Origin: Auriscalpium vulgare
Taxonomy: Eukaryota > Basidiomycota > Agaricomycetes > Russulales > Auriscalpiaceae
Direction: 5' to 3'
Assembly (NCBI GenBank): GCA_019915015.1
Contig: JAHBBC010000001.1
Location: 124,001 to 188,000, forward strand
DNA: 64,000 bases
Every line of letters begins with the position of its first letter. Positions within the stretch are counted from its first letter, which is position 1. The notes beneath the pieces were generated by a model. The model was not told where the DNA came from and made no database searches. It saw nothing but the letters and a program-made list of their open reading frames with translations. The translations under genes were made by a program, and so were the position numbers. Below are positions 22,402-64,000 of this stretch, one piece after another.

Positions 22402-22446
22402 AGGGATGGGGATGGGGATGGGGATGGGGATGGGGATGGGGATGGG
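22402..22446. repeat. GGGGAT hexanucleotide microsatellite, about seven units
   Basis: A run of (GGGGAT) units with G-tracts on the plus strand, capable in principle of forming a G-quadruplex. It lies 3' of the F-box pseudogene in that gene's orientation. Confidence 0.9.
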
Positions 22447-22559
22447 TGAATGTTGGAGGGGATCGGCGTCGTCGGGGATGTCGTCGGAGTTGTGCTAGGT
22501 ATGCGTTTTGAGCACTTGCTCGGACGGCTGGAGATGGGCGCCGCGCGTCGCCGTCTCGA

Positions 22560-24430: not shown

Positions 24431-24550
24431 CCATGCGTGCTGTATGCCCCGGATCGGTCGCGGGTATGCTGCGGTCCACGGTCAAGCGCAAGAATCATTC
24501 CTCTGGCCCGCCGAGGACGCCATCCGTGAGCGCGCTCACCGCGCCAACGG

Positions 24551-24970
24551 TCACGGTCCGAATTTGCCCATCTCACCGGCAGAGCACTTGTCCGCCAACC
24601 GCATCGAGGTGCGTGGCATATCCGACCTCTTCCGGCGAGAAGTTGCCTCGATCGAGGCGCTGCTATGGTCGCGCGCTGTGGAAGGCATCGGCAAGCGCAA
24701 GTATGAGGTGTATGGGTATAGAGTTAAGAGCGCGCGCGCACCGTAGGTCAAGGGCGCCGCATGCATCGCGTGCACTGCAGCCTCCAGCAGTCGAAAGACT
24801 GCGGTTCCTCCAAGGCCTCCAGCCTCCAGTGCAGCATAGAAGTCACCGCTGTCGATCACAAAGCGGCCGGAGTATCGCCAGCTGGCAGTCGCGGTCCTGT
24901 AGTCCGTTGAAATTAGGAGCGGGATTCGTAATGCCAGCGCACCGGTTAGATCGAGGCGCCCGAGATTCAA
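24551..24970 (-). pseudogene. Possible decayed coding remnant, family unknown
   Basis: The minus-strand frame over 24740-24970 reads like protein (DSGDFYAALEAGGLGG, VFRLLEAAVHAMHAAP). The likely continuation after a putative intron (GTGCGCG donor near 24745, CACAG acceptor near 24680) contains two in-frame TGA codons (one of them could be part of a splice donor) before 24430. A long plus-strand frame over the same DNA (24433-25662) is probably its shadow. I do not recognise the family. Confidence 0.25.
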
Positions 24971-25958
24971 GAGGCTGTAGCTATAGAATTAATCATCTCG
25001 AGGTACTAGGGATGGAGAGGGCGACAGAATGCGAGGGCGAGTTAACAGGACGTGGAGGCAGGAGGAAAAAAAGTATAGGTGCTAGTCGGCGCCCGGCCGA
25101 TGCCGGCGTCCTCCGCTCTCGCCTTGTCCGAGACGTCCGAGTCCGTTCCTTCGACCTCCACCATCCTGCGCTTGCTACACCTCCTCACACACCCAAACAC
25201 CAATCCGAGCCGCGCACGAGGTACCTCGGCATACTGGTGCGTATCCGGCCTCCAGTACCCTGGGCCTGCGATGTTGACTATGCCTCCCAGTTGCTCCGAT
25301 TCATCCCATTTGGCATCATCGCACGGCCATTGATCTCGCGATCGCTGCTCCTGGAGTACACCAGACGGAGGGAGCTAATGTCGCGCGTCCAATGTGTACC
25401 AAGTACGTTGCGAGCGTCACTTCGGGCCCAGATATTGAATACCTTTCCAGATGCCATTCCTCGTCAACCTACCCAAGACGACGCCGCATCCTTCTTCTCC
25501 GCCCCGGTTGCCCCGGCTTTGGTCCTCACGATCCGCGCAACCCGGCGCTCAATATCCAAGACCGCAAAATATTCCGCCGGGCACGGGCCGCGAGGAAGTG
25601 TGTTTGGCCGTCTGTGTTCGCGGGCTCGCCGCGCGTTTGATCTGCAGAGCGTAGAGCAATAAGCATGTCGTTCCCAGTATCATGTAAGTTCTTGATAACT
25701 CCTTGCTGTTGGCCTCGCAATCTTCCTGATACCGATTCCTCGTGTACTAGTAGCGCATACAGCCCGTCCGAAAATCGACAGCACGCTTGCGACCACACGA
25801 TGCGGCGGTGCATTGGACGTTCCATTGCGCGCCTTTTGCTGGCGTTGGACTGCGGGAAGCTGCTCGGTTCTCCGAGGGTATGTGGTATTTCCGCCGAAGA
25901 ACGTGGACTAGCTTTTAGAGAGCCATTGCAGAGCATGGCGGTACGATTCCGGGATTCT
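24971..25958. other. 3' side of the Helitron, terminus not resolved
   Basis: No supportable gene. The Helitron 3' terminus (CTRR preceded by a hairpin, minus strand) should lie here or just inside 25.9 kb. CTAG occurs at 25748 and 25909, but I could not see a convincing adjacent hairpin, so no end is assigned. Confidence 0.35.
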
Positions 25959-31900: not shown

Positions 31901-33257
31901 GGGGTGGAAGGGCGGCGTATACCTTCGCAGTAGGAGTTGCGAAGAAGACGGCGTTCGCGCTCATTTTGTGCATTCCTGAGGACACGACCCGCACAACAGA
32001 CCGGTTGTGGCACACTCTTGAAACGAGCATTTTTTCAGCCCAAGACAAATTTTGAAGCTGAGGGGGTACATCTCCCAACCAGTTTCCGTTTGCTAAAGCA
32101 CTGGGAGGCATGCGGCCTTTTTTCAGCGGCCCGTAGCAGGACTTGCATACGAAAGGCGTTCCGATCATTACGGGCCCGTCATGGGCTCGCGGTTCCTCAG
32201 CGACGCTCTGCCTTTCCTTACGCGTGATAAATATGCTCTCAGACTCCAATAGCGATGTCTCGAACGCGTTATCCGATAACGGTAAGAGATCCTTCACGCG
32301 ATATAGGCACGCGCAAACTGAGCACGCGGCTTCTTTGATATGCACATCGTCCAACTCCGAGCAAAACCCTGATATAATCAGGTGCATTAGGTCGTCCGAC
32401 AGAGGGCTCGGTGGAAACACAGGCGTAGCTCCGTATGCGCTGTCTTCTACCGGCTTCGATTTCCGTTTCGTACTTGGCAGCCCAGCAGCCTTGAACAGCG
32501 TTATATGGTGGTTACATGCGTCAGTATGTACATGGTCACCGATTAGAACCCGCATATCAGAGACGGTTACGTTGGCGAGATGGCCTATTTCGTGCTGCGT
32601 GCAAACGCGCCTGAGGTTGTTTCGATTAGTACGCGTCAGCATCTGTATTGGAACAGAGGTGCGGATGTTGTCCTCTTCCGTCACGGACGGCGTCTTGTCG
32701 TCAGTAAAGTGGTCAAAGAATTCATAGAATCTGTCAGCACTCAGGGGTGCCGTTCCCGGCAACAGGTATGGCTGAAGTTCGTCGGCGGTCCACAGCGTTA
32801 CCTGTTTACCACGCCCCCCGCCGACGAGCGTAGGTAGTTCAGAGGGTTGTAGGCGATCATAGGCGTTGGCAAAAATGCACGAATCATCCCTTGTAGAGTG
32901 TCTTATCGGTACGCCTACGTACGCATTCGTGCGTGCCTTCAACGGATGAGAGATGGGGATGAGGAAGCGCCGTATCAGAAACAAAGCAGCGGATGTAAAG
33001 TGCGCCAGAGCAAATAACTCGTAGCAGGACGATCGAACATGCGGATCGCATGCCTGGACAGTTACGCACAGCAGCTCTGCATAAGACGCAAGTGAGCGAG
33101 ACCAGCCTCGCTGCAAGAGCGTCACGTATGCGAAGCACCCGCTAAATACCCAAAGGCACAGGAGGCCATGTAGCCACGATTGCTTTGCCCATATGGCGGA
33201 CCTGTTGGTCGTTCCATTGCCCATTGGCCACCGTTCTTTTGCCGTTATGGCGTACAC
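25959..33257 (-). mobile_element. Helitron RepHel protein (2432 aa) with C-terminal ubiquitin-hydrolase-like domain
   Basis: One uninterrupted frame. In order: an N-terminal region (the first 110 or so residues may be non-genuine or preceded by an intron); a DUF6570-like cysteine segment near residue 369 (CKSCYGPLKKG, then LANGNWLGDVPPQLQNL); the Helitron-like N domain (LGAPSWFITFSPSD) with the HUH motif HLHLLLW near 846 and the two catalytic tyrosines in YVTDY near 1037; an acidic linker; and a PIF1/RecD-type helicase with Walker A GGMGGTGKS near 1552, DEIS near 1634 and the late motif TALSRGSS. Such proteins nick and unwind DNA for rolling-circle transposition. Residues about 2180-2410 look like a C19-type peptidase: SCAYDS at the cysteine box, two CxxC pairs (CPSC, CNQC) as in the USP zinc finger, and HFTAR...WYHDG at the histidine box. 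All motifs are intact, so recent activity is plausible. Confidence 0.9.
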
Positions 33258-33486
33258 TTTAGTATCCTTTGGAATGTCTCATTAGACTCTTGGTCGACGT
33301 GAGCGTCTCGGGGATTGCGTTGGGTGTGGAGCATGGTGGAGGTGTGTTGAGGCAAGGTAGTATACGCCGATAAAATCGCCTCGGAGCAGGCGCGTCGCGT
33401 GCTCGTTTAAAATTGGGTCTTAGATCACGCGGTAATTCACGACAGGCATAGATTTGCATTGCACAATTGATGTTACGAGGTAGGTA

Positions 33487-37877: not shown

Positions 37878-38605
37878 ATGTCCAGCCCAGTCCTCGCCGG
37901 CAACCCGAACAAAGACGTTCTTGTGGGGCGGCGTATGATCGTACGTGATTGACTGGTCGCTTTCCGTAGCATTGATAAACCCATGCCGCTACTAAGGTCT
38001 ACTGCGACGCCTGCATCCAAGGTGCGCTTGTCTGCTACCGCAGCAGCGCTCGCACGTGCATCGAGTGCCGAAGCAAACGCCGGAAGTGCGCGTATTCATT
38101 GGGCGTTCATGCATGCAGAGAACCCCCGTGCACTCTGTGTGCGCAGCGTGCCGTTGGATGCTACCAGCTGCAAGAAAGTGGATGCGTGAGGTGTTTGCAA
38201 ACGGGCGCTATGTGCTCCGTCGATGCAGGTGTGTACATCCAAGACAGAGCCGTCCCTGATTTCAATGGTGCGATAGGCCAAACCCAGGAGAACCTTGACA
38301 CTGCCCGCCGCTCGCCGTCGGCCGGCGACGCGGTGGAGGAGGCGGATGTCAACAAGGACGACCCTGAAGAGACCGCTCCGCTCGTCGAACCCATACAGGC
38401 GATCCTAAGGGACATCGCAAGCCTGCGCGCAGACATCCACAGCATAGAGTACGCGATGGAAACGGGGGCTTACAATGTGAGCGAAGGCATGGGAGAGGTG
38501 ATTGATCACGTCGCCAGGCTGGACAACCGAGTAGATAAAATGGATGGCAGAGTACAAGAGCTCGACGGTCGGGTTAAGACCTTGGAGAGAATGCTTAGCG
38601 ACTAG
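37878..38605 (+). CDS. Two tandem Zn2Cys6-like clusters plus coiled coil (223 aa)
   Basis: Two exons (37878-37940; 37997-38605) join in frame. After a short start (MSSPVLAGNPNKDV) come two cysteine blocks, each with spacing like a fungal Zn(II)2Cys6 binuclear cluster: C-x2-C-x6-C-x7-C-x2-C-x6-C from about residue 24 (CDACIQGALVC, CIECRSKRRKC), then a second from about 60 (CTLCAQRAVGC, CVRCLQTGAMC). A spacer with acidic stretches follows. The end is a heptad coiled coil (LDNRVDKMDGRVQELDGRV). Zn2Cys6 proteins are fungal DNA-binding transcription regulators, usually dimerising through a coiled coil. Two clusters in tandem are unusual. DNA binding is inferred from the spacing only. Confidence 0.75.
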
Positions 38606-40537: not shown

Positions 40538-41659
40538 TTAGTGCGGTTCAGCATATACGAGCAACGGGTTGGGAGGGAGAGTTAAAGAAGCGACGACCCC
40601 GACATCGACGATCGGGAACTGTATGAAAGTATCGTATAAACCGGTGATACTCTCTGTGACACAGACGCTGCGGGTCAGGACGAAAGATGTTGTAGAATCA
40701 GACACATATGCATCCACCAGCACTCCAGCTCGAAGGAAAGCGCGGACGCACACAACCGTCCCGGCATCGATCAGCGTGCCTCTCACAAACACGCCGTGGA
40801 CCATAAAGTACAGCGACCCTGTTCGCATCTTCAACTCTCTGGATGGAGGAACACCATTATAGGTTGGATAGCCGTGCCATATCGGTGACAGGGGGCTATT
40901 AAAGGCGCCTGGGGTAGACGAGTTCATCGCGAAAGAGACAAAGTCTTTGAACCGGGGGAACTGTGTGACACACATGAGGACAAACAACGAAGGGCACTGG
41001 CCAGTACGCACGCTGTGAACCCTATTATGAGCATGCCGTCGAATAGCGAGACCGTAAAGCGTACCATGTTATGACGGCGTTTGTCCCACACTCACGTACG
41101 CGCTCTTCATACCGCCGCGTTGGCAAGCCTGCCAGGTTGAACAATATAGGGAGACTGCCTTTGTCGTACAGTCTACTTGTAGTCTTAATTAGCCACATGC
41201 GACCAAGCAGTAGCCTACGACGGACCTATTATCATGGGCTGCGCACACGATCTCCAAGGGACCACGAAGACGCGCTATATCGAGCGTCTCCAGAATAAGC
41301 ACCTCGCCATCCTCCCCATCAGCAACGAGCTCGTGAAAGACGCGGTACCGGTCGGTAGGAAGCAGCGGCAGGTTTCCTGGATGACCGTTGAAAAGTTCCA
41401 TGGCGAATAGGCAGGGGCGGGCGACGAGACCCGTGAAGTAAGTGTAGGAAAGATGTCCGGATCCAGTGGCCGCTGTGTTGTACCGCACGCCCGAGTCAAT
41501 CCACGCCCGCGTTGTCGCGGCGGGAAGAGGTTCGAAGTATCGCGGTGCGGAACGCAGCACGAGTGACGATGAAGACTTCTGCCCTAGGCTCCTCGGGTTC
41601 TCTAAACTCCCGGAGTTACCTAGTTGTTCGTTGTGCGATGGTTCTTCGGTGGTCCGCAC
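40538..41659 (-). CDS. Conserved protein of unknown function (317 aa, three exons)
   Basis: Exons 41659-41219, 41128-41100 and 41021-40538 sum to 954 nt and join in frame. The N-terminal exon has a Ser/Asn-rich start and a globular part (YTYFTGLVARPCLFAMELF, VLILETLDIARLRGPLE). The large 3' exon has FPRFKDFVSFAMN, then GSLYFMVHGVFVRGTLIDAG and the conserved end VLVDAYVSD...FIQFPIVD. A 5'-truncated paralog lies at 38735-39082, and the paired small-protein gene (39522-40371) sits between them. No signal peptide or membrane span. Function unknown. Confidence 0.7.
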
Positions 41660-42038
41660 TTATGTCGTAAGAAGTACCTGGGAAGGATCGAAGAGTCGAG
41701 TTCTGGAATCTGGTGAAGAGATCCAAAAGACGAAATGCACGGGGACGTGCGGAGGGTGTGTACGGATGTGCACGTAGATTGATATTGTCCGGAGATGCAA
41801 GAATACAGAGTACGGGTGACGATACTCTAGACGGGGACGTTCAACGGAGTACGACCGAAGAACGAGAATGAACCGATGGGGGAAAACACTAGACGGTGAA
41901 GTCGAGCAGGGATGGGGGGATATGCGGAGTGGATAACAGATGCGAACGTACGCGGACTTCAAGTAGACTTCGGTGGAACTCCCAACACAGATTCGACACA
42001 CGCAGAGGACAGGGTCAACACACGCAACGGACGGATAC

Positions 42039-42180
42039 GACAATAACACAGATAAGCACGAGGGGACACGTAAAGCAGAGCAGTCAACAACCAAGTCCGT
42101 AACAGTGACGACAATAACACAGATAAGCACGAGGGGACACGTAAAGCAGAGCAGTCAACGACCAATTCCGTAACAGTGAC
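42039..42180. repeat. 71-bp tandem repeat, two units
   Basis: Two adjacent units starting gacaataacacagataagc at 42039 and 42110, differing at only a few positions, which indicates a recent duplication. Confidence 0.85.
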
Positions 42181-42447
42181 GTCGATGAGAACTAGCGTTG
42201 GTGAGAATAGCGTCGATTGGAACACAAGAATACGAGTTGAACGGAGGGAACAACAAGGGTCGGCAAGTGACTGATATAGTCAAGGAGGCAAGCAGCACTC
42301 CTTCAACAATCAAGTCAAGGAAAAAGCAACTTATAGAATAAGAAGCTTTGTAGGGGGGAAAAGAGACACTAGAATTTCTCCAGAGGCCAGGTATTTATAC
42401 CTTTTCTCTTGTGGGAATATTCTACCTAACTAGGGTACTAGTATATG

Positions 42448-42553
42448 AAGGAGTCATAAGGGAGTCATGAAATAAGGGGAATAGAATGAGCCAGAATAAA
42501 AGGAGTCATAAGGGAGTCATGAAAATAAGGGGAATAGAATGAGCTAGAATAAG
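42448..42553. repeat. About 51-bp tandem repeat, two units
   Basis: Two adjacent units beginning aaggagtcataagggagtca at about 42448 and 42499, differing by one or two bases. Confidence 0.85.
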
Positions 42554-42747
42554 AGAAGTCCAAAGAGTCAAAAGGAGTCACATATGACCAGGCACCAGGA
42601 ACTTGGTGTACAGCCTCTAGACAGCACATGTTAAAAGGAATGCATGAGTAATACAGACCAGCAAGTGACCTTGGCTGGCAAGAAAATGTGAAGCATAGAT
42701 GAAAAGGGTAAGTGAGAAGCAAGTCATGTGACCCACCATCCATCTGA

Positions 42748-43953
42748 TCAGAGTCGTCGTTCAACCCTCTTTCCTCTCTCCACCTTCAGCCATCGATGGT
42801 CGTAGCTCAGCACGTACCCGTTCTCGTCGATCTCGGTCTGTGTCCTCTCGATGCGGTGGTCCTTCAGCTCGCTGTCCAGGTTGAGACCGCCCGGCATGTT
42901 CGAGACGCCAAACGCCGCAGCATTGCGTGCGACTGGACTGTCGAACTCGCCGTAAGGATCCTCCAGGCCGCGGAAAAGATCCACGAGAGCGTCAACGACA
43001 ACCGGTGTTGGCTTGGGTGGTGAACCGGAGCTGGACGAGTCCGGGAGTTCTGGATGTTCGATGATGATATGATGGGAATCGATGGTGTCGGTCTCGGAGA
43101 GCTCGATGATGGGGGCGAAGACCATTTCGGTGGGCAGAGTCGAAGGTGCACAATGCTCCAGAGGAACCTCGAGGAAGACAAAGCGCGGGCGAGAGTACTG
43201 GGCATGATGAGGTGCGCGTACCAGTAATGCGGCGAATACGGCATGTTGCTCATCTTGACCGAAGTAATGCATGATGTGCCCAAACTCCGTGTATCCGTCG
43301 TAGGAGAACCGCACATGAAGGTGTTCTGCGTCGAGCTGCTCCTGACCGCTAACTTCTCCGCACCATAGACGTCGGCGAGGCGGCGCAATATCGAGCTCGG
43401 GGCGAAGGAACATCTCCGAACGGGAATCAACGCAGGTGCTGGAGGAAGTGGGGAACGGATGGGATGCGAACGTGAATGTGCCAGTAGCCTTGAACTCCGG
43501 CAAAGGACTGAGCCGACCTAGAAGTGCGTTGTTCCAGATAGGTGCGACGAGGTGGGCAGGGCGAGACGGTGATGATTCCAGAGAGACGAATTCCGCCAGC
43601 GAATACAGCCGATTCGTCTGCTCTTCCTTCTCAATATCCTGGCTCGGACGGAACAACTCTTCGTCAGGCAATGCCACATAGTCTGAGAGATGCGTGGTGA
43701 TGGTACGGTCAGTGTCGTTAGGGAATCTGCGCATAAGCGCACATACTGGTGGCAGTCGTAGATTGGGCCAGGCGAGTTGTTGCGGCCCGGAGTCGATCGA
43801 CGGCATGCCAGATACTCGGCATAAGGGAGAAATGCATGATGGGGACTGGATAGAGAATGAAAGTGAAAGAACAAGGATTTGTTGGAAGCGAAGGAGTGTG
43901 GGGGAAAGAGTTGAAAGGAGTGGGCGCTCGACTTCATGGCAAAGTTGTATCAT
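42748..43953 (-). CDS. Single-exon orphan protein (up to 401 aa)
   Basis: An uninterrupted frame of 401 codons. Two starts are plausible: 43953, giving a leucine-rich first 45 residues that could be untranslated, and the internal ATG near 43806 (MPSIDSGPQQLAWPN), which I prefer and which gives about 352 residues. The protein is rich in Pro, Ser, Glu and His, with stretches such as HLHVRFSYDGYTEFGHIMHY, RFVFLEVPLEH and VVVDALVDLFRGLEDPYGEF, and a basic end (KVERGKRVERRL). No known domain recognised. Absence of introns sets it apart from its intron-rich neighbours, and it adjoins the LTR-like segment. It could be a mobile-element protein or a retrocopy. Confidence 0.55.
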   Translation of the reverse strand: MIQLCHEVERPLLSTLSPTLLRFQQILVLSLSFSIQSPSCISPLCRVSGMPSIDSGPQQLAWPNLRLPPVCALMRRFPNDTDRTITTHLSDYVALPDEELFRPSQDIEKEEQTNRLYSLAEFVSLESSPSRPAHLVAPIWNNALLGRLSPLPEFKATGTFTFASHPFPTSSSTCVDSRSEMFLRPELDIAPPRRRLWCGEVSGQEQLDAEHLHVRFSYDGYTEFGHIMHYFGQDEQHAVFAALLVRAPHHAQYSRPRFVFLEVPLEHCAPSTLPTEMVFAPIIELSETDTIDSHHIIIEHPELPDSSSSGSPPKPTPVVVDALVDLFRGLEDPYGEFDSPVARNAAAFGVSNMPGGLNLDSELKDHRIERTQTEIDENGYVLSYDHRWLKVERGKRVERRL

Positions 43954-45036
43954 TCAGTCGGCAATCGTCAAATACGATCTCGATGAGATCTCGCTTGGTT
44001 TTGAAGAGAATATCTTCAAACCATGTTGCGGCGCGACAGCGTATTGAGTCGAGCACCGAATCAGGGCAAGCGCTAAAGATCGGCTTTTCACAAGTGACGT
44101 CCGACAGGAGGTTGACTCAATGATGCGAAGAGCACTGGAGAGCTGAAAGCATAGGCAGTAAGTAATACCGAGTGCCTGATTATCGATGTCTAAGTGCGGC
44201 CGATGCCTTGAACGGAAGCCGCAACATAAAATTGAGACCACGCGCGATACCTATTCGACAGTGTCCCGGTATCTGCGGAATAACTGCGCCGCGCGGAAGA
44301 ATGCCCAGTGCTCATGTGATACCCACCGGGACACGAGGGACCTCCGACCAAAAATGCGCTACGTACCGCGCGCGTGCTCAAAGATCCGACCGAAGCCCGA
44401 GGTCAAGATAACGTCAAATTTGCGGAATAACTGCGCCGCGCGGAAGAATGCCCAGTGCTCATGTGATACCCACCGGGACACGAGGGACCTCCGACCAAAC
44501 ATGCGCTACGTACCGCGCGCGTGCTCAAAGATCCGACCGAAGCCCGAGGTCAAGATAACGTCAACGCATAACCGACTGGCAGGCGTTATCAGGGACACTG
44601 GCCTGATATCGGACGGGGGCTTCGACCGATGCGCTCCGATGCGACGGTCGAGGTGCTGATACGAACGCCGCCTACAACTGATGGTGTCTGCCGTGTTTGT
44701 CCGAGCGCAATACCGCGTTGCGAAGTTGCGCTTGTCACCGCGCGGACGAGGGCGCGGTGCGCATGGGACCCATCCGGCTCTGAGAGGGAACACAGCGCAT
44801 GATCGTCGCATTTACTGCGCGCTGGGCCGGTGATCCGAAGAGGGCCGGGATTTCAACCTGGCAACCGATGTCGACGAAAGGACACAAGGTGCCCCATCAA
44901 ACGGTTTCAGGTGAGAAAGGCAAGGCGCAACAGTCACGCAGAGATACGCAACGTAAAGCACACGTCCTGACGGTTTTAAACCAGGCACGGTAACCGGCGG
45001 CGACACGCAGGAAACATCAATCCGATTGAACTTGTT
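43954..45036. other. Intergenic region with a 147-bp duplication, no gene seen
   Basis: Apart from the tandem duplication at 44274-44565 I see no coherent exon series. Open frames on both strands are short and lack recognisable content. Confidence 0.45.
44274..44565. repeat. 147-bp tandem direct duplication
   Basis: The tract starting tgcggaataactgcgccgcg at 44274 is repeated from 44421 with only isolated differences (for example ccaaaaatgc versus ccaaacatgc). The near identity points to a recent event. Confidence 0.9.
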
Positions 45037-52134: not shown

Positions 52135-52918
52135 TCAACGTACGGTAGCCACGACGTAGTCACCACCGGAAACCATGAGAGTTTCTTTTATAGGTATCAA
52201 AGGAAACTGCCAACGCCAAATGCACCTGGACCTATCAGGACCCCATAAGAGAACCGCCGCGCGAGAGACCAACCAAGCATTCTCGTCACCATCAACAGGA
52301 TGAACGACGGCACCGCCAACCCAAAAGTCATCCAGCTGTACGACCACCGGAACAGGAAAGGCCTTCACGGTGTCCGGATGGCCCTCGTCGAGGCAAAGGA
52401 GGTGATACCGTTCACCGCGGACAAGTTGAACGTAGGTCGGAGGAGGTGCGCAGCACATGTCCGGTATACCCAACGACGCCCGCATCAAATCGCATGTCGG
52501 GGTAACGACGTGGTCAACGGCTGAGGCAATAACCGATGCGAGGTGTCGACACTGTGTGGATATGAGACAGGCGGAGGATACAAAAGCCGGAGCGCGTGCA
52601 TACCCTAGGGAGCAGTCAGAGAGGATCGAAAGGTATGGGCTGGGACCTACTCAGTAGCTGTCAGGTGGCAAATATCGGCTTTGCCAATGTACCGGAGGAT
52701 CTTTGGGTCCATTACCCTGTGATGATCGCTGATGAGGAGAAACGAGCTGCGAGAAAAACAGATACGGACATGGGATGGACGACTCCGATGTCACCTCCGC
52801 GGAGCCACAACAGCCTTGTTCTAACGCCAACGGCACCTACGACGCGGCTATACACTTGATGTAATCCGGTGAGGGCTGCATCGCTCGCGAATGCGTCGGA
52901 GACAACAACGCAGGCCAT
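52135..52918 (-). CDS. PPPxYLxLxRG family protein, copy 1
   Basis: First exon from 52918: MACVVVSDAFASDAALTG, then QVYSRVVGAV and the family signature LLWLRGGDIGVV. The 3' exon (52135 to about 52540) reads LASVIASAVDHVV, then APPPTYVQLVRGERYHLL, FPVPVVVQLDDFWVGGAVVH and SRCIWRWQFPLIPI. Four relatives in this window share the order: LIWLxGGxIG near the N-terminus, a helical exon, then PPPxYLxLxRGxxYxLL, a strand-rich stretch, and RCxWRxQFPLxPx near the end. The strand-rich part may form a compact beta domain. No catalytic motif or known domain recognised. Confidence 0.6.
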
Positions 52919-52984
52919 CGATGTTGGGGGAGAAGGGACGGCGCCACTGGGCTCCGGCCTGTATGCGTACGGAACAATTCGGGA

Positions 52985-53250
52985 TCGGAGTATGTAAGTA
53001 AGGTGGAAAAATAAGAGCCTCACGGGACAAAGGATCTGCTACAGGGTCCATATCTAAAGGGAGTAAAATGTACAGATGGCGACAGACGCAAGAGCCCATC
53101 GAAGGTGACCAGAACACAACCGTCTCGGGGTACAGGAGTCAACCAACCCAGTCTCCGTCAAAAAGGTAACCATGATGTAGGCGTCTGTAAAGTATTTGAG
53201 GCGGACGGTGGAAGTGTAGTTCTGTATCAGGTGTCTGCCTGGCTAAATAT
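52985..53250 (-). pseudogene. PPPxYLxLxRG family fragment
   Basis: The minus strand contains VLFWSPSMGSCVCRHLYILL PLD, the C-terminal signature of the family, preceded by a weakly matching stretch (YIMVTFLTETGLV) in a different frame. No N-terminal exon or PPPxYL motif is found. It lies between copy 1 and the zinc-cluster gene. Confidence 0.5.
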
Positions 53251-53373
53251 CGGCGGGTCCGCGCCCATTTGGCATCAATCAGGCGGGCATCAAAAATTTT
53301 CCCGGACCAGCGCAAGAGACCCGCGGCCGTGCGGCGATGCGTCCCTCTACAGAGTGCATTGGACGTTACGGAA

Positions 53374-54157
53374 ATGCCTAAGGCAACGTCCCTGGTAAAG
53401 TCCGCAGAGCACAAGGTTGGTCCCGCAACTGTGACCGGTTTTCGAGCTAACGTGCGTCGTTACAGATGGGGTGCGCCAGGTGCCAAGAAAAGAGTCTTGT
53501 CTGCGGCCGCAAGTCTCAGCATAAGCGATGCGCTCCCTGCGCGAAAGCGCATAGCAAGTGCGTCGCATTGTACCCTATGCCAGTTCCGCGGTGTGTACAG
53601 GCACGTAGATCGCGGGGTAAGGATAGCCATTACACTGACGAGACGTCAGAGCAAAGTCAGTGCCGTCCGCGGGTCGGAGACCCCGTCCGACACAAGCACG
53701 GACGAGGACGAGCGAGAAGCCAAGCGAATCCGTGCCGGATTCATCGACGGCGATGCTCTGTCAATGGATGGCGAAAAGATGGAGGTGCGTGCTTTTTCGC
53801 GGGGCATGGACGACCATCCCACTGACGAGGCAACGTCAGAGCAAAGCCAGTGCCGTCCGTGAGTCGGAGTTCTCGTCGGACACAAGCACGGACGAGGACG
53901 AGCGAGAGGCCAAGCGAATCCGTGCCGGATTCGTCGAAGGCGATGCTACGTCAACGGACGGAGCAAAGAACGAGGTGCGTGCTCCATCCCAGCCCGCGTA
54001 CACGTTGACAGAAGGCAGTCCACAGTACGTATCGATTCTTCGAAGCTCGTACGAAAGGCTTCTTCGGCAAGAGCAGTACCTGTGTGACACGCTCATGCGG
54101 ATGGGAAACGTTGCCAAAGCCAACATCCGTACACTGAAGGAGGCAGGGGGGAGGTAA
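53374..54157 (+). CDS. Zn2Cys6-like protein with tandemly duplicated exon
   Basis: Exon 1 starts MPKATSLVKSAEHK. After an intron ending TTACAG (53465), exon 2 begins MGCARCQEKSLVC and continues to CAPCAKAHSKC, giving C-x2-C-x6-C-x7-C-x2-C-x6-C, the Zn2Cys6 spacing. Two near-identical exon-plus-intron units follow (from about 53643 and 53833), each encoding SDTSTDEDEREAKRIRAG followed by a GTGCGTG donor. The final exon has a helical end (SILRSSYERLLRQEQYLCDT LMRMGNVAKA). The SDTSTDEDE block is acidic then basic, like a nuclear localisation segment. Exact borders around the duplicated exon are unresolved. A DNA-binding or transcription role is inferred from spacing only. Confidence 0.6.
53643..53970 (+). 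repeat. About 190-bp tandem duplication of an exon and its intron
   Basis: The tract starting cgtcagagcaaagtcagtgc at 53643 recurs from 53833 as cgtcagagcaaagccagtgc, with the acidic block in both. Identity is high, and both copies keep open frames and the donor. Confidence 0.8.
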
Positions 54158-54251
54158 ACTGAAAACATATGTGACCTACGCTCCATGTGAAGCCGATTGT
54201 ATACGTAGCAGCATCGTGCTCAACGCTCATTACGAATGGGAGGTGTGGTTA

Positions 54252-55094
54252 TCAAGGCGTAAGGACTACTGCATCGCCCGTTACCGGATGTGCGACAGGG
54301 CTAGTATCTAAAGGTAAGAGGGGAAACTGAAGTCTGCATATGCAGGAACCCGCGGACGGTGACCAGTAGGTAACAAGCACCGGCTTCATGTCGCTGTCAT
54401 ATCCTTCGTCACCATCCGGTTCTCCGCTCTCCGTAACGTAGGTGAAGCTAACGAAATCCTCACCGAAGTCATTCAGGCGAATGAGCAGCGGGTAAAACTG
54501 CGGAGTGGCAGGGTCGACAGGTACGCTCGAGTACGGGTACGTGCGATAGATCTGCCCTCGACGAAGATGCAGGTATCGCGGAGGTGGCGCTACGTATCTA
54601 AGCTGGTCACCCTCCAGCATGAGCAGCCTTCTGTCCATGGGGTTTGGGAATGGTATGATGTGGTCCTGCGACGCATGGACGATGGCATCCAGGTCGCTGT
54701 ACTGTGAGTTGATCAGTGACCGTGAGGCGGATAAGGTGCTGTGACCGACCCTGCAAGCGTGTTAACGAGGGCGGCGATGTGAGCGGATGATAGCACGTAC
54801 GTGTCAATGAAGAGGTGCTGGGGTTGCGCAATGAGGGAGGCGCTATACATCTCTGACTCCGCATATCCACCCCTGGTACACAGTGAGGACGGAGGGCATG
54901 CAGATAGGAGGTGGTTTGCACCTGTCTGTGTAGACGCCAATATGACCGCCATCAAGCCATATCAGGAGGGCATCCCCTACGGACCCAGTCACGTCCGCAT
55001 AGACGCGCTGAATAGGGCTCATTTCGCCCGAGGCCGTGGTCATAATACCGGTGTGGGAGTCGAGGGATGAAGCGTTATTCTCTATCTGGGGCAT
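54252..55094 (-). CDS. PPPxYLxLxRG family protein, copy 2
   Basis: Exon 1 from 55094: MPQIENNASSLDSHTGIMTT, then IQRVYADVTGSVGDALLIWL DGGHIGVY. A middle exon (about 54830-54755) encodes FIDTYVLSSAHIAALVNTLA. A GTCGGT...CTCACAG intron leads to the last exon: YSDLDAIVHASQDHIIPF, then APPPRYLHLRRGQIYRTY, FYPLLIRLNDFGEDFVSFTY, SPSAGSCICRLQFPLLPLD, ending GDAVVLTP. Close to copy 3 at 62.2 kb, whose final exon ends GDAIIT. Function unknown; the repeated copies and their position among zinc-cluster and oxygenase genes are the only context. Confidence 0.65.
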
Positions 55095-56035
55095 AGCAGG
55101 TGGACGCGGGCAGAGGCGAGTGCGAAGTTCGGCAGGTCCTTTTTTCTAAAGCCGACGAGCCGAGCGTTGTCCTAAATACCGATCACAATAGCACACCGCA
55201 TTTTCACGGACGGCTCATATGCAGCGCCGTATCTGAGCAGACATGTGAAGGTCGCGGTTGTTGTTCGAGACATTCATCAGAGCCGGTCCCTCTATGAAGC
55301 GCAAGTTGGGCTTGGCGTAGTGCGCGGCAGGAGGCGGCGGTCCCAACTGGAACTTGAAGGTAGGATGAGGCGTGAGGTTTGACGGGCGTGGGTTCGATTA
55401 CGTGTAAGCGCTGGATGGAGCGTTAGGTCACCAAACGCGTCCCGGCTACCACGACAGCATCCGGTCTGCCAGCGCATCCACCAACGTCCGCCAATCCACA
55501 CAAACGCACAGAAACCGCGATCTTATTAAAGGTATGCAAACCTCGATAGCGCATCTTCTACCGACGGGGAGCCGTCGTCTTCTACCAAAGTTTACACTCC
55601 AAGCCCGTGCGCATGAACAGCGTTCCATTTCCCCTTTCCCTGTGCCGCCATCCTGAATGCGAGCTGGGCACCCAACGGCCCTTTCGCGCAATCCTTTTCT
55701 TCCCTACGCCCTTTCGACGCACTCTTCAGTGCGAAAGGGTCACTCCTGGGACCCGACGTGACGTGGAGGACACCACTTAGCCCATGCGCCTCCTTCCCGC
55801 GTACAACTTCTACACGTCCTTCGATGCGAATGGGTCCATCCAGGGCCCCGACGCTTCGACTGTCCTTCTGCTACCTACGCATCTCACTGGTTGGCGCGAA
55901 AGGGACCTTGTTATGACAGATGCGATGTTGTGAGCCGCCTCCCTGCCCAGCCAGAGAGCAACGTCCACGCATTTCTCATCATAATGATATTACGCACGGG
56001 TATTCTGACAACATCGACTTTGTTTCACAGAATAC
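55095..56035. other. Intergenic region, nothing certain
   Basis: Short pyrimidine-rich repeats with a gcgaaagggtc/gcgaatgggtcc motif occur at about 55724 and 55823. No exon series recognised. It includes the presumed promoter of the dioxygenase gene. Confidence 0.4.
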
Positions 56036-58085
56036 ATGGCCGACCGACTGAAGGTGAGTTTTCGCTCAATGTAAGTTGCAGTCGTAGCTCATGGACCTTG
56101 TCAGTTTGCCAAGACACGATCAGGGCGTATATATGCACCAATCTCGCATCTGACGCCGCTGTCGACCAACCTCAAATACGAGCTGCTCCTTCAAAAGGCC
56201 GTCCAGCGCGACGACGAGGAGGCGGACGGGATGGACCTCGGAAGACGCATCGCACGGTTCTGCGCAGCAACTCTGGCGGCCGAACGCATAGGCCGCGACG
56301 GAATATCCGCACCGTCATCACCAACCTCTCTGTCTCCCCTCACGACCTCACCGATAACAAGCAGGCCGCCGTCAAGCAGCGGATCCGATAGCGACCGCTC
56401 GGACAGGTCGTACGAAGACCCTTCTGCGTTCGTTAAACCATCGTAATTCGTACTAACGACGCTGACGCCGCCAACAGGCTCGATCACACTACGGACAAAG
56501 GGGCGGCAGCCGCGAAGGCTTCGACGGCGTCCCAGAAGCGAAGGCGTCGACGGAGCGTCGCCATCACGCGACCGCACGACCGGCGAATGCCGACAGCTGA
56601 CGATGCAAGCACCTCGGTCGCAGGGCATCCCTCGCCCCGCGATCGCGAAGTTGCGGACGGGAGGGCGCCAACGGCGCCTGTGGCTGGCAGCCGGCCGGGT
56701 GCCGTATTCGAGCCGCGCATACAACATGGGCGCAAACCGTCGGCGAAGGCTGGCAAGACTCGGCGGCGCCGCCAGAAGCGTCAACGGGAAGCACATGAGA
56801 AGAACGCCTTGACCGAGTTACATGGAGCGAGCTTCATCAAAAACCACGCCGCAGCCGACATCATCGACGCCGAGGGCTTCGACGCGATGGAGTACTCGGT
56901 CACGCGAGGGGGGTACACCGTGAAGAAGCTAGGCGTGGAGGGTGATAGGCCCTGGACTGCGGAGGAACTCGACGACATGGGTATAGCGGAATTCCCGTGG
57001 GACGGGTGGTGAGCGAACACAGTTGGACCGGCACATAGCGGTGACGCTGACAGACGACAGCAACACGTACGCAATACTCGATTGCGAGGACAGAATCATC
57101 GCGGTTCTGCTCGGCAGACCGCAAGACGCCGAGGGCACGCCCCCAAACGAGTGCTGGAACGCGGTCATAGGCCGAGGCGGGACGCTCTTTGAAAGCGTGC
57201 GGCGCAGCGGTGAAAAGCGTCGGGCATTCCCCGCTAGACTAGCGCGTCACCGCCGAGGTGAATTCACGGCATTGTCTTTCGGCATCTCGTACGGAGGAGG
57301 TCAAACGGTAAGCGGGGCACTCATACGCCTGCATTTCAAGTGCTGATACGACGCGAACACAGAAGCCAGGAGAGCTTCGCCACTCGAAGACGAGGGGAAA
57401 ACTTGTCGAACGCATCAAGCGTTCTCCGGACATTCAACAAATCGCAGGTCACGCCAGCGGTGAGTCCCGTCGTCCACATGCACAGGCTCAATGCTTATGC
57501 CCTCTAACAGAGGGCCTTTCCTTGTTCTGTCCAAAGCCCGCCGTTCACATGCGCGAAGCCCTCCTCGATCTCCTGGAGTCCGATCCGAGTCTCAAGATGC
57601 CCTTTCGCAACAGCGTGTACCCCACCGCAACTGCAAATTTGGGTCCCTGCACCACCTGTCTGCTCCACAACGACTGCACAAACTTTCCTGGGCTCGCATG
57701 TGCAATCACGGCGCTTGGGTCGTTCAACCCCGTCGCCGGCGGCCACCTCGTCCTTATCGACTTGCGTCTGAGGGTCCGTTTCCCCGCGGGTGCGACTATA
57801 CTGCTGTCATCAGCAGGCCTTCGGCATGGGAACGTCCCAGTCGCGGCAGGTGAGCGCAGATACTCGTTTACGCAGTACTGCACAGGCGGCGTCATGCGCT
57901 GGGTTAGGCACAGCATGCGGCCAGCAAGCGACTTATCGGACGAGGAGCGCGTAGAACTCGACGGTCCCAACGGAGAGGGGTGGGCGCGCCAGCTTGGTAG
58001 ACTGAGCAAGTACAACGAGCTGGAAACAGACAGGTCATGCATGATTGACAGAGAAAAGGTGATCCGCGCTCGAAGCCGACTGTAA
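56036..58085 (+). CDS. Tet/JBP-like Fe(II)/2-oxoglutarate dioxygenase (589 aa, six exons)
   Basis: Exons 56036-56053, 56105-56406, 56478-57008, 57061-57307, 57363-57459 and 57511-58085 sum to 1770 nt, in frame. The N-terminal 290 or so residues are low-complexity and basic (RRRRRSVAITRP, KAGKTRRRRQKRQREAHEKN). A conserved part follows: WTAEELDDMGIAEFPWDG, YAILDCEDRIIAVLLGRP, FGISYGGGQ. The catalytic core shows HND near residue 450 (HxD metal ligands), GGHLVLIDL, the distal histidine in LRHGN near 504 and Arg in ERRYSFTQY near 514, which would bind 2-oxoglutarate. The pattern fits the double-stranded beta helix of Tet/JBP enzymes, which oxidise methyl groups of pyrimidines in DNA; fungal members are known as lineage-specific expansions. 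Substrate and Tet/JBP assignment are inference; a 2OG oxygenase is well supported. Confidence 0.75.
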
Positions 58086-58385
58086 TTCGCAAATAATCAA
58101 GGGTGATATTCACGTTAATCAGATGTAATTCACACATAAATCGAGGGTGATATTCATTTAAATCAGCTGTAATTCACACATAAATCGAGGGTGATATTCA
58201 TTTAAATCAGCTGTAATTCACGCATAAATCGAGGGTGATATTCATTTAATATAGCAGTAATTCACACATAATTCGGGTGATATTCGCTTTAAACAGTTGT
58301 AATCGAAGCCATAAAACGAGGATGATATTCATCGGTTGGTTGCGATATTGGTACGTAATTCGGAGATGATATTCATTTAATGCGT
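58082..58385. repeat. About 44-bp minisatellite, six to seven units
   Basis: Units of the type gtaattcacacataaatcga followed by gggtgatattcatttaaatc. They start at the stop codon of the dioxygenase gene and end about 100 bp before the preferred start of the JmjC gene. Units 2 and 3 are identical or nearly so, and outer units are diverged and shorter or longer (35-52 bp). It is AT-rich against a GC-rich background. Confidence 0.9.
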
Positions 58386-58485
58386 GAAATTCGTATGTAA
58401 TTTGATCGCGAAATTTCGGACGGCCTGCTTCCATCCTACCACGACCCTCAAACGCGCGTGGTCCATCTCACGGCCAAACCAACAC

Positions 58486-61181
58486 ATGCACGTAATCCCT
58501 AAGACCCTCCCGCCCCCTCCCTCGGATATACCGGATGGGGAAGAAATGAAGGCAGAGTGGTTCAAATGCGTTCACGACAACGACGCACCCGAACCACATT
58601 TCAATGCGGTCTATTGGGGTCCCCTAGCACCGGACGGACGAATATGCGGAGCAGGTGACGTGTGGGTCAAGACGAACGACACGAAGGCCGTGTGGGTATC
58701 AGACGGTAAGGGCAGATGGTCCGAGTGGCAGTTTCTCTACGGCCAAGCAAAGCACGTTCGGGGTGGGGATGCTCGGCACCCCGCGCACGACAGGTATCTG
58801 TCCTACCACATACCAAAGGGATGGACGTACGTGACCCGAAACTGTCTACGCGTCAACGCAAGTATGTTTGCGTCGGGCGCCGAGCCGAAGAGTTGGCTGG
58901 CAATCCGCCATCCGGGGGTCGAAAACCCGCAGGCTACAACGGCAGATGTCATTGACAGGTGGCTGGTAGACCGCGCAAGTACGTGGCACACGGTGTTCTT
59001 CCTTACAGTCCAACTGATCAAGTGTGAACATCACTCTCATCAGCGTCAGACAAGACTCAAAAGAAACGAAGGCGACGGCAATCACTCGACGGTGCGTAGC
59101 AGAGCATGCGGTCCGTGTCGGCGCCGCGTGCTCACCTGTGAGACGAATGTCTAGTTCAAGATCACGCGGCAAGTCAGCGCCAACCGACGGACATCCCACG
59201 CTCGCAATTCGAAGGCGTAAACCGACTGAAGACGGTACATCAACCCCCTCCTCCTTCTCCGGGCGTTGGGCTTGGCCCCCCACCCCCAGTACCTGCTTCG
59301 TCGTCGCCACATCACCAATCACTGAAAGCACACCCAACCCCAAGCACCCCTCATACTTCACCGGAGGCGGGCGAACGCAACATCGAGCACAGGACAGAGC
59401 GCTGGCCCGACGGGACGCGGTTCGTGGTGTGGGCAGAAGGCTTCGAAACGGTTCTGCCATACATAGGTCACGTCCTTGGGCGAGAGGTTGGTCCACCATC
59501 GCAATTGTAACGCCATCCATTGACAGATAAGCACGGGCCCACAGGAGGAACAGGATGATGACGTTCATGCCGTTCTGGACATGGCGGCGGCGGCAGTCGG
59601 CACAAATGAGGGCTCGCCTTTCGTTTTCCTCACATTCAACGCCGCAGAGCGGACGCACGCCCGCATTGCTGACGACATTCGCTATGCACTGGCCAGAAAT
59701 CATACCGTCGTTGTCCGGGGTGGCATCTCCGCGGGCAACTACGAGATAAACTTCGACAAGGAGTCACTGACCGACCTCGTCCGAGAGCCGACGATCACGG
59801 TCCAGGTTCATTGTAAGTCATAATATCTGGACATCCTCAATGGGGCGACCGAGCACGCAAGTGACCTATCGTTCTGCACACAGGTGCAAAAAAGCGAATG
59901 CATCCACAGGCGCCGAACGCGAACGTGACCATGTGTTATCTGGACTTTCTTGACAACGTCTCCCGACCGGATCAATGCCTCAACCTACTGGATCTTCCGG
60001 TACGAAAATGCGCACCGCCGGAGTATATGGAGTGGGTAACCTACCGACGGGGAGACGCGTTAGCTGACACAGTGCGCGTACGCAGGCGCATGCAAGACGA
60101 CGCAGGGGCATGGGATATAACAAGCCGGACCGGGTACCAGGAACAAGGCAATATCTTTGCGGCACAAGCTCGGAAATCCACGACGGCGAAGGCGTACTCT
60201 AAGCTCGTCGAGACATGGGCAAATCGCTCCAAGGACGTTGATTTCGACAGCATCGGACCTACGGTGCGGTCGGCAGACCTCTATGAACGGTGGCATATTA
60301 TAACGTCCGGTGGGTTCTACACTCGCACACATCACGACTCAGACGGGTTGTGCACCTGGGCGAGCCCACGGCACGGAGTCAAAATATGGGGCGTCGTCAG
60401 CTTCACGAGGGCAGTGACCCCGATCGCGCAACAGACAGTCATGGGTCTTTTCCGAGAGGTCATTGACTCCGGCGCTCATGGACTGGTGCTCAAAGACCCT
60501 CGTTTTTCACTGCACGTTGTGAGGTTGGACGTAGGGATGACGATGTGAGCACTGCATTTGCGGAATCCGTAACCTCGCTACATGCACTGAGCTATGGAGC
60601 AGCATCATGCCCCCGGGAACGTGGCACATGGTGTACACGCCCGTAGACAGCGTTATGTACGGCGGTCACTTTCTAACGTACGAGACGCTGCACTTGTCGG
60701 CCTGGTCCCGCGCCGCCGATGCAGACGAGGATGGAGCCTACGCGACAAATGCGGACCATCACGGGGTGAAACGAAACTTGGCAAGGATGGCAATGGCCTT
60801 GAAAGGACGTGTTGAAAGTGAGTGGCCCTACCCTTAGACTACAGTGGCATATCCAACATCTCACCGAACACGCAAGTGAATCGAAAGTCGTTTATGGCGC
60901 TTGCGAACATGATCGTCAACGCACACGAATTCCACGCCGAGGACAGCCGCCCACCTCCGAGAGGGCTGCAAGCAGAAGACGGGATGGACCACGTAGTCGC
61001 ATTTCGCACGGTGAAGGCAGTGTGTCTTGACAACGGCATACCGCGAGGCGCCCTGTCAAAGCCAATGGCGGACGACATCCCATGGGACCAACCTGGGGAC
61101 GCCATGGTGAGCCTGGCGATTCTGCGGGACGACATGGATGCACGGAGGTTGGCGATGATGAACGAGAACCGTACCTGGTAG
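58486..61181 (+). CDS. JmjC-domain-like protein (779 aa, seven exons)
   Basis: Exons 58486-58978, 59044-59091, 59155-59486, 59527-59812, 59884-60544, 60603-60817 and 60877-61181 sum to 2340 nt, in frame. The N-terminus (MHVIPKTLPPPPSDIPDGEE) is followed by GDVWVKTNDTKAVWVSDGKG, a basic KKRRRQ stretch and a Pro-rich linker, then WPDGTRFVVWAEGFETVLPY. The oxygenase part begins FVFLTFNAAERTHARIADDI, VVVRGG. Metal ligands appear as HHDSDG near 536 (HxD) and PPGTWHMVYTPV near 615 (distal His), followed by YGGHFLTYETLHL. JmjC proteins are Fe(II)/2OG oxygenases, many of them histone lysine demethylases; substrate here is unknown. An ATG at 58384 would extend the protein into the minisatellite and is less likely. 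Lies downstream of the Tet/JBP-like gene, same strand. Confidence 0.75.
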
Positions 61182-61932: not shown

Positions 61933-62245
61933 ATCACGAGCGCACTGATAACGGTGCACAGGACTTGGACATGCGGGCCGTCGGTCTCTATGGCATCATC
62001 CTGTTCATAACAGAATGGACCGTCTCTGCCCAAAGCCAGGCTAATACGCGGGGCCTAAGCGTAGGATAGGGGGGGCGAGGTACTATACAATACGCACATG
62101 CGAAGAGCCCGCGTACTACAATTTAAATGCCGTGAACCCTAAGGAATACACTCACGTGACTGTCGTCGCATGACGGGGGCGTGAGACTGTAAGGGAATGT
62201 CAAGAGCACCCCCCGCTGACGTCTTTACCCATTGCAAGATACGCC
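61933..62245. other. Intergenic, nothing seen
   Basis: About 310 bp with no exon; presumed promoter of the next gene, without a clear TATA box. Confidence 0.35.
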
Positions 62246-63170
62246 ATGGCAGGTGAGTACGCAGCAAATGATGTGCTCGATATGTCCTCACACGTTTCGT
62301 CAGACAGGGGTGGCTCGGTGTTAGGCGCTTCAGACTCTACTAGAAGGCCCCTGGCTCGAGCAAGACGCACTGCGCATGGACCGCCCATGGAGCAGGCGAT
62401 CCCATTGCCCGTCCAGCAGGTATACCTGGAAGCAACAGGCATACATGAGCGGGAGGACAAGCTCATATGGCTAAGGGGAGGTCATATCGGCGTTGTAGAT
62501 TCGAAGTCAGTGCCCGGTCAAAGCACACACCCTCCCGTTTACAAATCCGCGTACCACAGCAGCAACCACAGGTACCGCACCGTTCATATGTTCGCGGGGA
62601 AATTGCAGCCTCAGAACGTCGACGACGAATGGTGAGCTTGCATGCATCTCGGTACACCCCACAGACCGCTGACTCCGCCCAGGGTACGTCGACGAAGTCA
62701 TAACGAACGCGGCGCTGACAACGCTAACGCAGTTCGATGAACTGGCCTCCGTCGCGTTTGCGGCGCAAGACCATCAAGTGAATCGCGCAAACCCCACAAG
62801 GTCTCGACTGTGCATTCTAGACCAAGGGCGCACTGTACACATCTCGCCCCCTCCCCGATACCTGCACATCGTCCGAGGCGAGAAATACCGGCTGCTACGC
62901 CATCTCGACGAAGACGAAAAGGACCTACCCATTAGGCGGTACCCGTGCATCATTCGGGTCAAAGACTTTGAAAACGACACCGTCACATTCTGCTACGGTG
63001 AAGAGGGTAGTCCCGGCGATAGCACTGCGGAATACTGCCTCAGTCGCAGACCTGTTTTGTTTTGGTCACCTTCCCTCGGTCATTGCGTTTGGCGCCTCCA
63101 GTACCCACTGCTACCGATGCACGTAGACCACGTCGCTCTTCCTGTTACGGGGGATGCGATCATTACATAA
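62246..63170 (+). CDS. PPPxYLxLxRG family protein, copy 3
   Basis: First exon: MAGEYAANDVLDMSSHVSSD, then LPVQQVYLEATGIHERED and KLIWLRGGHIGVVDSK. After an intron region ending CCGCCCAG (62681) the last exon reads YVDEVITNAALTTLTQFDEL ASVAFAAQDHQVNR, then SPPPRYLHIVRGEKYRLL, YPCIIRVKDFENDTVTFCYG, SPSLGHCVWRLQYPLLPM and ends GDAIIT. The helical segment before PPPRYL matches the middle exon of copy 2. One or two introns in 62500-62680 are not resolved. Function unknown. Confidence 0.6.
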
Positions 63171-63229
63171 TTCAATTGCGCATGGCCGTCGCTCGCTCGC
63201 CAAGCGGTCTATTTTCACTAAGCAGCCAC

Positions 63230-64000
63230 AATGCCATCCGTAGCACAGCACCAGCCAGCAACCACTCCGGGCTCAGATATGCTGTCGACAGTACAAGGCG
63301 TCTATTGTCATGTTTTCGGAACACCGTCCCCGGGCAATGGGCTTATCTGGCTGTACGGAGGAAGCATCGGCGAGCTCGGAGACCAGTGAGTGTATACCGA
63401 CGCCACGCGGGGACGTTTGCTTAATCGTCCTTGGTAGAGCGTCCGACAACGGGATCGTCGAGGCCGTAGGGCACGAGGCTCCGATAGCTTTGACGCTAGA
63501 CCAGTACGTCACGAACCGCACCTACTCACAGGCCAGCGTAACTGACCACATTCTAGGGTGAGCAATCCGCACAAGCGAGCGCATGGCAAAGCTAACCTTT
63601 TCCGCTTTTTTGATAGTATAAGGACCTCCGTGCAGTCATTAGCGTTGCAATGGACCACGATATCGGCACGGCGAGCCCCACCCAGATGGACCGCAGCAGA
63701 ACGCGCGGGTACTCCTGCCCCCCACCACCTCTTTACCTCAGGCTCGTACGAGACGCCCACTACCAACTATTGTGCCCAGATCTTGATAACCATGGGTGCA
63801 TTGATCTCCGCCCCCACCCTATTATTGTACGCATTGTTGACTTCATAGCGGACCTCGTCCACATAGAATGCGTGTCCACCACTTATCACGACCACGTGCG
63901 CAGACGAGCGCTGATGGTGCGGACGGCGGATAGCGGCAGATGGGCATGGCGTATGCAATTTCCACTTATGCCCATCGACTCGTCTAACATGCGTCAATCC
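63230..64000 (+). CDS. PPPxYLxLxRG family protein, copy 4, cut by the window end
   Basis: Exon 1: MPSVAQHQPATTPGSDMLST, then GLIWLYGGSIGELGDQ, intron GTGAGT...GGTAG. Exon 2: SDNGIVEAVGHEAPIALTLD, YSQASVTDHIL, intron GTGAGC...GATAG. Exon 3: YKDLRAVISVAMDHDIG, then CPPPPLYLRLVRDAHYQLL, HPIIVRIVDFIADLVHIECV, SGRWAWRMQFPLMPIDSS, still open at the window end. Introns fall at the positions expected from copies 2 and 3. It lies head to tail behind copy 3 with a 60-bp gap, so the two are a direct tandem pair. Confidence 0.6.

Follow-up and report, generated by a model that had tools for sequence, protein, structure and literature searches.

Why do genes for a TET/JBP-type and a JmjC-type 2-oxoglutarate (2OG) oxygenase stand side by side in the genome of Auriscalpium vulgare, and what carried them there? 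The pair lies in the stretch of 64,000 nucleotides analysed here (the window; C1:124001-188000, in an assembly of 51.6 Mb and 96 contigs). An earlier reading, made from the sequence alone, had suggested either a coupled chromatin and DNA modification function or co-mobilised cargo. We found both genes inside an element that occurs at five sites with shared ends, and an open reading frame (ORF) for a RepHel protein adjoins its CTAG end. The vehicle of the pair is almost certainly a Helitron, judging from its sequence features. For the explanation as a whole, in which a giant Helitron2-like element, moved by RepHel, carries the pair as cargo and the two enzymes act for that element, we estimate a probability of roughly 0.6. 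The sequence-only reading was right in part: its suggestion of co-mobilised cargo agrees with a five-copy Helitron with mapped ends, a vehicle that it had missed, with RepHel in the same window. Published work is cited below from excerpts of open-licence articles.

Ends, copies and RepHel of the element

The features that define the element and its two oxygenase genes are as follows.

25907-64000, minus strand (that of RepHel): in-window part of the giant Helitron, which continues to C1:210422, 22.4 kb past the window
25908-25950, minus strand: Helitron 3′ terminus, with GGAATCGTA at 25942-25950, the palindrome GCCATgctctgcaATGGC at 25922-25939 and CTAG at 25908-25911
25962-33278, minus strand: RepHel ORF, 2439 codons from stop to stop, 22.8 kb left of the gene pair
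56036-58085, plus strand: gene 1, TET/JBP-type 2OG oxygenase, 601 aa, 5 introns
58486-61181, plus strand: gene 2, JmjC protein, 787 aa, 5 introns

The five copies of the element lie on four contigs.

C1:149907-210422: window copy, 60.5 kb
C4:20763-80974: copy C4a, 60.2 kb
C4:1899296-1968458: copy C4b, 69.2 kb
C9:335864-413503: copy C9, 77.6 kb
C23:441167-495023: copy C23, 53.9 kb

All five have a common start base (window 25907), and the C9 copy matches two bases further. Using window positions 21400-28000 as the query, homology begins at query position 4508 in four of the five copies and at 4506 in C9. The end base is also common to the five copies (query positions 4105-4108 of L050:1-4400, minus strand). 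The flanks are all different, and no high-identity repeat of the DNA to the left of 25907 was seen at the places tested. Between the ends, the C9 copy aligns with the window copy over 17.9 kb and the C23 copy over 25930-63554, at 99.7% identity; both C4 copies align likewise. Without the stretch 41513-44038 and without the insertions to the right of 65585, the shared core amounts to about 41.2 kb (15.6 + 21.5 + 4.0). The interiors were read outside C4:22.9-50 kb in C4a and outside 1.9418-1.9684 Mb in C4b, and in C9 up to 359 kb and at its end.

On the RepHel strand, the 3′ end reads GGAATCGTA-CC-GCCATgctctgcaATGGC-tctctaaaaG-CTAG and is followed by T; the opposite end starts T-TACGATTCC. The palindrome GCCATgctctgcaATGGC is imperfect. 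A T precedes TACGATTCCC and another follows GCTAG in all five copies, and with T at both sides in 5/5 the T at 25907 is assignable to neither element nor target. That T aside, no target-site duplication was found at the five copies, nor was an empty insertion site found in the genome. Compared with canonical Helitron1 ends, the 3′ CTAG fits CTRR and the 5′ TC is missing. TACGATTCC and GGAATCGTA form a 9-bp asymmetric terminal inverted repeat located 34-35 bp from the 3′ end, and on this feature the element appears Helitron2-like. In fungal elements of the Helitron2 type, an inverted repeat is placed likewise near the 3′ end (PMC5148889).

The RepHel ORF matches the Pfam families DUF6570, Helitron_like_N (E 1.6e-33) and PIF1 helicase (E 2.7e-23). 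It has an HLH (HUH) motif at 854, a candidate Y-x3-Y at 1047 and a Walker A motif at 1562. Six Pfam families matched the ORF at E<=1, and a Helentron-type endonuclease is not among them. The sequence-only reading had seen no KDZ transposase near the pair, and a Pfam scan of 28 window ORFs and three L050 ORFs besides the two genes, which is not exhaustive, likewise revealed none; on the ORFs scanned, KDZ cargo appears improbable.

Pairwise differences between copies are 0.16-0.28% over 13.4-34.7 kb. Just two sites group a pair of copies (C23 with C4b) against at least two of the others, from which we infer that the copies are star-like and date from a recent burst. The 3′ end also occurs at 21 further places and the 5′ end at 33. 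By hand count, 18 of the 21 further 3′ ends have a partner 5′ end on the correct strand and in the correct order, spanning 2.1-21.5 kb, and none of these 18 shorter spans overlaps a TET or JmjC match (checked by eye). Such same-ended elements, for example C4:1362385-1365114 and C20:208876-230329, were probably moved in trans. The C9 copy sits in an ORF (L033:2675-3877; C9:334675-335877) that by eye resembles a Copia gag with a zinc knuckle. In our own reading of its flanks, one Copia-like ORF continues in frame if one T is dropped; no uninterrupted copy of this target was found.

The two oxygenases and their relatives

Re-derived exons agree with the sequence-only models, which had placed two genes head to tail, 400 bp apart, and closing in frame. 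Both are on the plus strand.

56036-56053, 56105-56442, 56478-57008, 57061-57307, 57363-57459, 57511-58085, plus strand: exons of gene 1
58486-59091, 59178-59486, 59545-59812, 59884-60544, 60603-60817, 60877-61181, plus strand: exons of gene 2

Intron 3 of gene 1 (57009-57060) is backed by the Peniophora homologue P0003; intron 2 measures just 35 nt, which is unusual. Intron 1 of gene 2, modelled at 59092-59177, is uncertain, as many alternatives preserve the frame. Nine homologues were listed for each gene, and a deeper profile search raised the number for gene 1 to 38. Given these homologues, neither gene is a chance ORF. For both, the best named relatives belong to the Russulales.

A search of the spliced proteins against the Tet_JBP and JmjC profiles, which the sequence-only reading had proposed, gave no match, and neither protein has any Pfam match at E<=1. 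Genome searches with the two profiles also returned matches from which the window is absent. Its assignment of gene 1 to the Tet/JBP-like enzymes was nevertheless borne out by structure prediction: the predicted fold is a double-stranded beta-helix whose nearest solved structures are TET enzymes. The gene 1 homologue profile gave low-complexity matches only when compared with solved structures, so that the assignment is carried by the fold alone. On that predicted fold, we place gene 1 in the TET/JBP oxygenase superfamily. Its metal ligands were described as intact and are conserved in the alignments. H463 and D465 of HND are invariant and H516 is ≥90% conserved in a 10-row alignment; in a 37-row alignment (P0001 numbering), H255 is invariant and H202 and D204 are at ≥90%.

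Two further conserved residues distinguish gene 1, N468 at HxD+3 and C474 at HxD+9. Pfam Tet_JBP (PF12851) and the AG type call for Gly or Ser plus Asp, where gene 1 has Asn468 and Cys474. The PE type of Kojima 2025 has HxE, whereas gene 1 has HND, and HxD is invariant among its homologues. CcTet of Coprinopsis cinerea (PDB 7w5p, 8jkk, 7vpn) shares 14% identity with gene 1; its Gly331 and Asp337 correspond to Asn468 and Cys474, and unlike CcTet gene 1 lacks a Pfam Tet_JBP match. In hTet2, the places of CcTet Gly331 and Asp337 are taken by Asn1387 and Thr1393, of which Asn1387 holds 5-methylcytosine (5mC; PMC11040006). Provided that the HxD segment is correctly matched without gaps, gene 1 would have Asn and Cys at these hTet2 positions.

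For gene 2, the homologue profile matched 14 JmjC chains among solved structures (E 1.8e-11 to 5.7e-4), in line with the earlier JmjC-like label, and one of three scanned homologues of its family (P0013) passed the Pfam JmjC cut-off. By these sequence matches, we assign gene 2 to the JmjC family. The ligands H544, D546 (HHD) and H623, called intact by the sequence-only reading, are invariant in a 10-row alignment, as is K561, which we take to be the 2OG-binding Lys. The N-terminal region is conserved. An AlphaFold2 model of the homologue P0010 was too poor (mean predicted local distance difference test score 46) and was left unused. The JmjC core matches KDM2A and KDM7-type demethylases (PDB 4qwn and 3n9l; E 1.8e-11 and 5.6e-11); in contrast to these, Pfam reveals no reader domain in gene 2, whether PHD, CXXC or another.

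Relatives of gene 1 are abundant in the genome, with ≥140 matching pieces at about 100 separate places (hand count). Many fall in equal-score sets, which suggests recent copying. Gene 2 has far fewer: besides the five near-identical copies, there are relatives at C1:2.86 Mb, at three locations on C4 and on C12. The five gene 2 copies adjoin the five gene 1 copies. Within this genome, the neighbour pair recurs in four further copies, two of them interrupted, and neither this check nor that of the fold, both set by the sequence-only reading, refuted it. The two genes are adjacent in three of the five near-identical copies, while nested insertions separate them in the remaining two.

The TET frame is open in the window, C9 and C23 copies and has a one-base frameshift in C4a and C4b. 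The JmjC frame is fully open in the window copy only. It has a premature stop in C9 and a frameshift in C4b; the stop in C23 would vanish if intron 1 started earlier than modelled. In C4a it is stop-free, but a 4.1-kb insertion two codons past the start splits the gene.

A second pair of a TET-like and a JmjC gene, on the same strand, is located at C12:496.7-500.9 kb (L042:1717-5866). Its TET-like ORF, different from gene 1, matches Pfam Tet_JBP with E 1.6e-6, under the cut-off, and the start of the JmjC gene comes about 0.9 kb downstream of it. The C12 JmjC protein matches P0013 of A. vulgare in three of four pieces at 98.6-100% identity, with the N terminus at 81.9% and a gapped stretch at 84.7%. 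This single case favours a function of both genes. A candidate pair at C2:3.02 Mb was rejected; the Pfam JmjC match there is a short JmjC-like tail behind what resembles part of an isoprenoid synthase, and its TET partner is a truncated relative. Another, canonical and recently copied TET family is represented by six Tet_JBP (PF12851) copies that score identically, for example at C8:1578966 and C13:416026. At C14:512811-523622, about 9 kb separate a related RepHel piece (69% identity at the DNA level) from a gene 1 relative in equal relative orientation, and this locus is possibly another TET-bearing Helitron.

Further features of the element lie on either side of the pair.

41513-44038, no strand: 2.5-kb stretch that the window copy has and that C23 and C4b (the copies compared) lack, probably a nested insertion
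52138-55145, minus strand: unknown paralogue family, two ORF groups left of the pair (C1:176186-178707; best ORF 54255-54761)
62174-64000, plus strand: unknown paralogue family right of the pair (C1:186685-187982; best ORF 62673-63167)

Members of the paralogue family are about 165 aa long with a GDAIIT-like ending and have no Pfam match. They occur at ≥4 places around the pair, in opposite orientations to its left and right, with more members on C2, C4, C9, C10 and C23. In C4 and C9, a BTB/POZ ORF (E 4.4e-4; L050:4067-4591, minus strand) is situated close to the element's 5′ end, and in the window copy inserted DNA breaks it at C1:189585. Small cysteine-rich ORFs with repeated CxxC pairs are found inside the element at 37979-38602 and 53451-53822 (both plus strand), the former without a zinc-finger family match in Pfam. 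Left of the Helitron, window positions 3028-18744 contain long ORFs with weak leucine-rich repeat (LRR) matches (E 0.0017 to 0.1, below the cut-off), perhaps an F-box/LRR cluster.

Methylation trace, proposed mechanism and competing explanations

We counted substitutions private to one copy, using sites covered in three or more copies. C>T/G>A changes account for 75 of 117, and 62 of the 75 are at CpG (CpA 7, CpC 4, CpT 2), whereas CpG makes up 4542 of 13933 Cs (odds ratio 10 per site, Fisher p 4e-19). The usual source of CpG transitions is deamination of 5mC. The bias suggests that the Helitron copies are methylated. In Agaricus bisporus, CG methylation is almost confined to transposons, and hypermutation was not detected in Agaricomycotina according to the excerpts of Kojima 2025 (PMC12730594).

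Helitrons move by means of RepHel: it nicks one strand and peels it off, and a copy of the element arises at another site. Here, the RepHel protein would nick and peel one strand, and rolling-circle replication would copy the element elsewhere. In a fungus that methylates repeats, the new copy may then be silenced through heterochromatin and 5mC. On all copies of the element, the TET-type enzyme would oxidise 5mC in trans, and the JmjC enzyme, also in trans, would strip a repressive methyl mark from histones (or another protein) of the same chromatin. A silenced copy could thereby be opened at both levels, at the expense of O2 and 2OG, and RepHel expressed. Transposition is read from the sequence, silencing from the CpG bias, and enzyme action from family membership. 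For an anti-silencing function of both genes together, we see the chances as even. Past constraint on the TET domain speaks in favour: between this domain and three paralogues, nonsynonymous divergence (dN) is 0.27-0.30 and synonymous divergence (dS) 2.7 and 3.0 (the third not computable), values that point to constraint before the copy burst, with dS near or past saturation. In the JmjC exons, dS is saturated or not computable in six of seven comparisons, and nothing is inferred on selection there.

Several observations weigh against this account. The 18 shorter relatives lacking TET and JmjC genes imply that mobility is independent of both. The visible decay fits silenced, decaying copies as well as useless passengers. 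Three JmjC loci (C1:2.86 Mb, C4:350 kb and C4:690 kb) have no gene-1-type relative within 8-9.5 kb. The element and its left flank have CpG observed/expected ratios of 1.12 and 1.13, indicating no long-term depletion, and the CpG bias lacks a control from TET-free repeats. As to the Helitron itself, the 5′ end is TTAC (or TAC) instead of the canonical TC, and the 3′ stem drawn by a folding program is no more stable than shuffles (z -0.13).

The main rival holds that the element captured a chromosome piece with both genes, the unknown family and the BTB-like ORF, none of use to it. Helitrons are known for capture (PMC6431247, PMC4289320), the JmjC model is damaged in four of five copies and TET in two of five, and the shorter relatives are mobile without either gene. 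Set against this, the roughly 100 gene 1 relatives, together with TET genes on 11 transposon lineages (PMC12730594), suggest repeated usefulness to transposons, and the second TET-like/JmjC pair at C12, though a single case, is unlikely to be due to chance. We regard useless cargo as unlikely, if a serious contender. Rather improbable, in our view, is a different or host-directed chemistry, in which gene 1 would yield an oxidised or a hypermodified base instead of removing 5mC, or act on N6-methyladenine, and gene 2 would be a protein hydroxylase or a non-catalytic anti-silencing factor. Gene 1 lacks the Gly331/Asp337 pair of CcTet and stands outside Pfam Tet_JBP, Kojima 2025 keeps other activities open (PMC12730594), and Epe1, a JmjC protein of fission yeast, is reportedly non-enzymatic (PMC7192584). 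However, Asn at HxD+3 is the residue by which hTet2 holds 5mC (PMC11040006), and gene 2 retains every metal ligand and the conserved Lys. A segmental duplication without transposition would account for alignable blocks of unequal length with internal breakpoints. Yet the breakpoints are nested insertions, homology resumes to the same two ends in 5/5 copies, and the terminal sequences are common to many other elements, which makes such an origin extremely improbable.

Comparison with known systems

TET+ fungal transposons including Helitrons are already described: Kojima 2025 (PMC12730594) reports likewise TET/JBP-encoding Helitrons with a proposed anti-silencing role, of the Helitron1 type in Puccinia graminis and Pezizales and of the Helitron2 type in Agaricus bisporus. 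From Russulales, the excerpts report only TET+ Kyakuja. TET+ Harbinger families have an unidentified third protein, and glycosyltransferases or other additional modification proteins are said there not to be encoded by TET+ transposons (PMC12730594). JmjC is unmentioned in the main text of that article, and its PE type is HxE where the protein here has HxD.

We found no transposon with both TET and JmjC in the open-licence PMC literature. As far as searched there, it is new for JmjC to join TET on one transposon, for a Helitron to reach such a length and for Russulales to have a TET+ Helitron; the TET subfamily, which stands outside Pfam and is neither of the AG nor of the PE type, is new as well. 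Transposon TET genes have been proposed to counter silencing by methylation, so far without test. A young element that pairs TET with JmjC, and whose copies differ in open genes and bear a CpG trace, makes the anti-silencing idea directly testable between copies.

The HELPO Helitrons of Pleurotus ostreatus (Castanera 2014, PMC4289320) are also basidiomycete, encode RepHel and contain one to four captured genes. They measure 7.1-13.3 kb, as opposed to the core of about 41 kb here, and the genes captured are of other kinds. Full-length gene capture by Helitrons is described as exceptionally rare in a 2019 review, which gives sizes of up to 14 kb in fungi and 39 kb in maize (PMC6431247); the element reported here (core about 41 kb, up to 78 kb with insertions) is above both of these figures. 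FoHeli of Fusarium oxysporum, a non-canonical Helitron2-like element, shares asymmetric terminal inverted repeats and insertion next to T (PMC5148889). Its 3′ repeat copy lies 20-40 bp from the end, and its ends are not TC...CTRR, whereas the 3′ end here is CTAG; FoHeli1 and 2 are about 5-6 kb long, and oxygenases are unmentioned in the excerpts (PMC5148889). Tentatively, and at slightly worse than even odds, we view the pair as a two-level anti-silencing kit of a DNA and a chromatin demethylase on the largest Helitron mentioned in the literature found, a basidiomycete rolling-circle counterpart of giant cargo elements.

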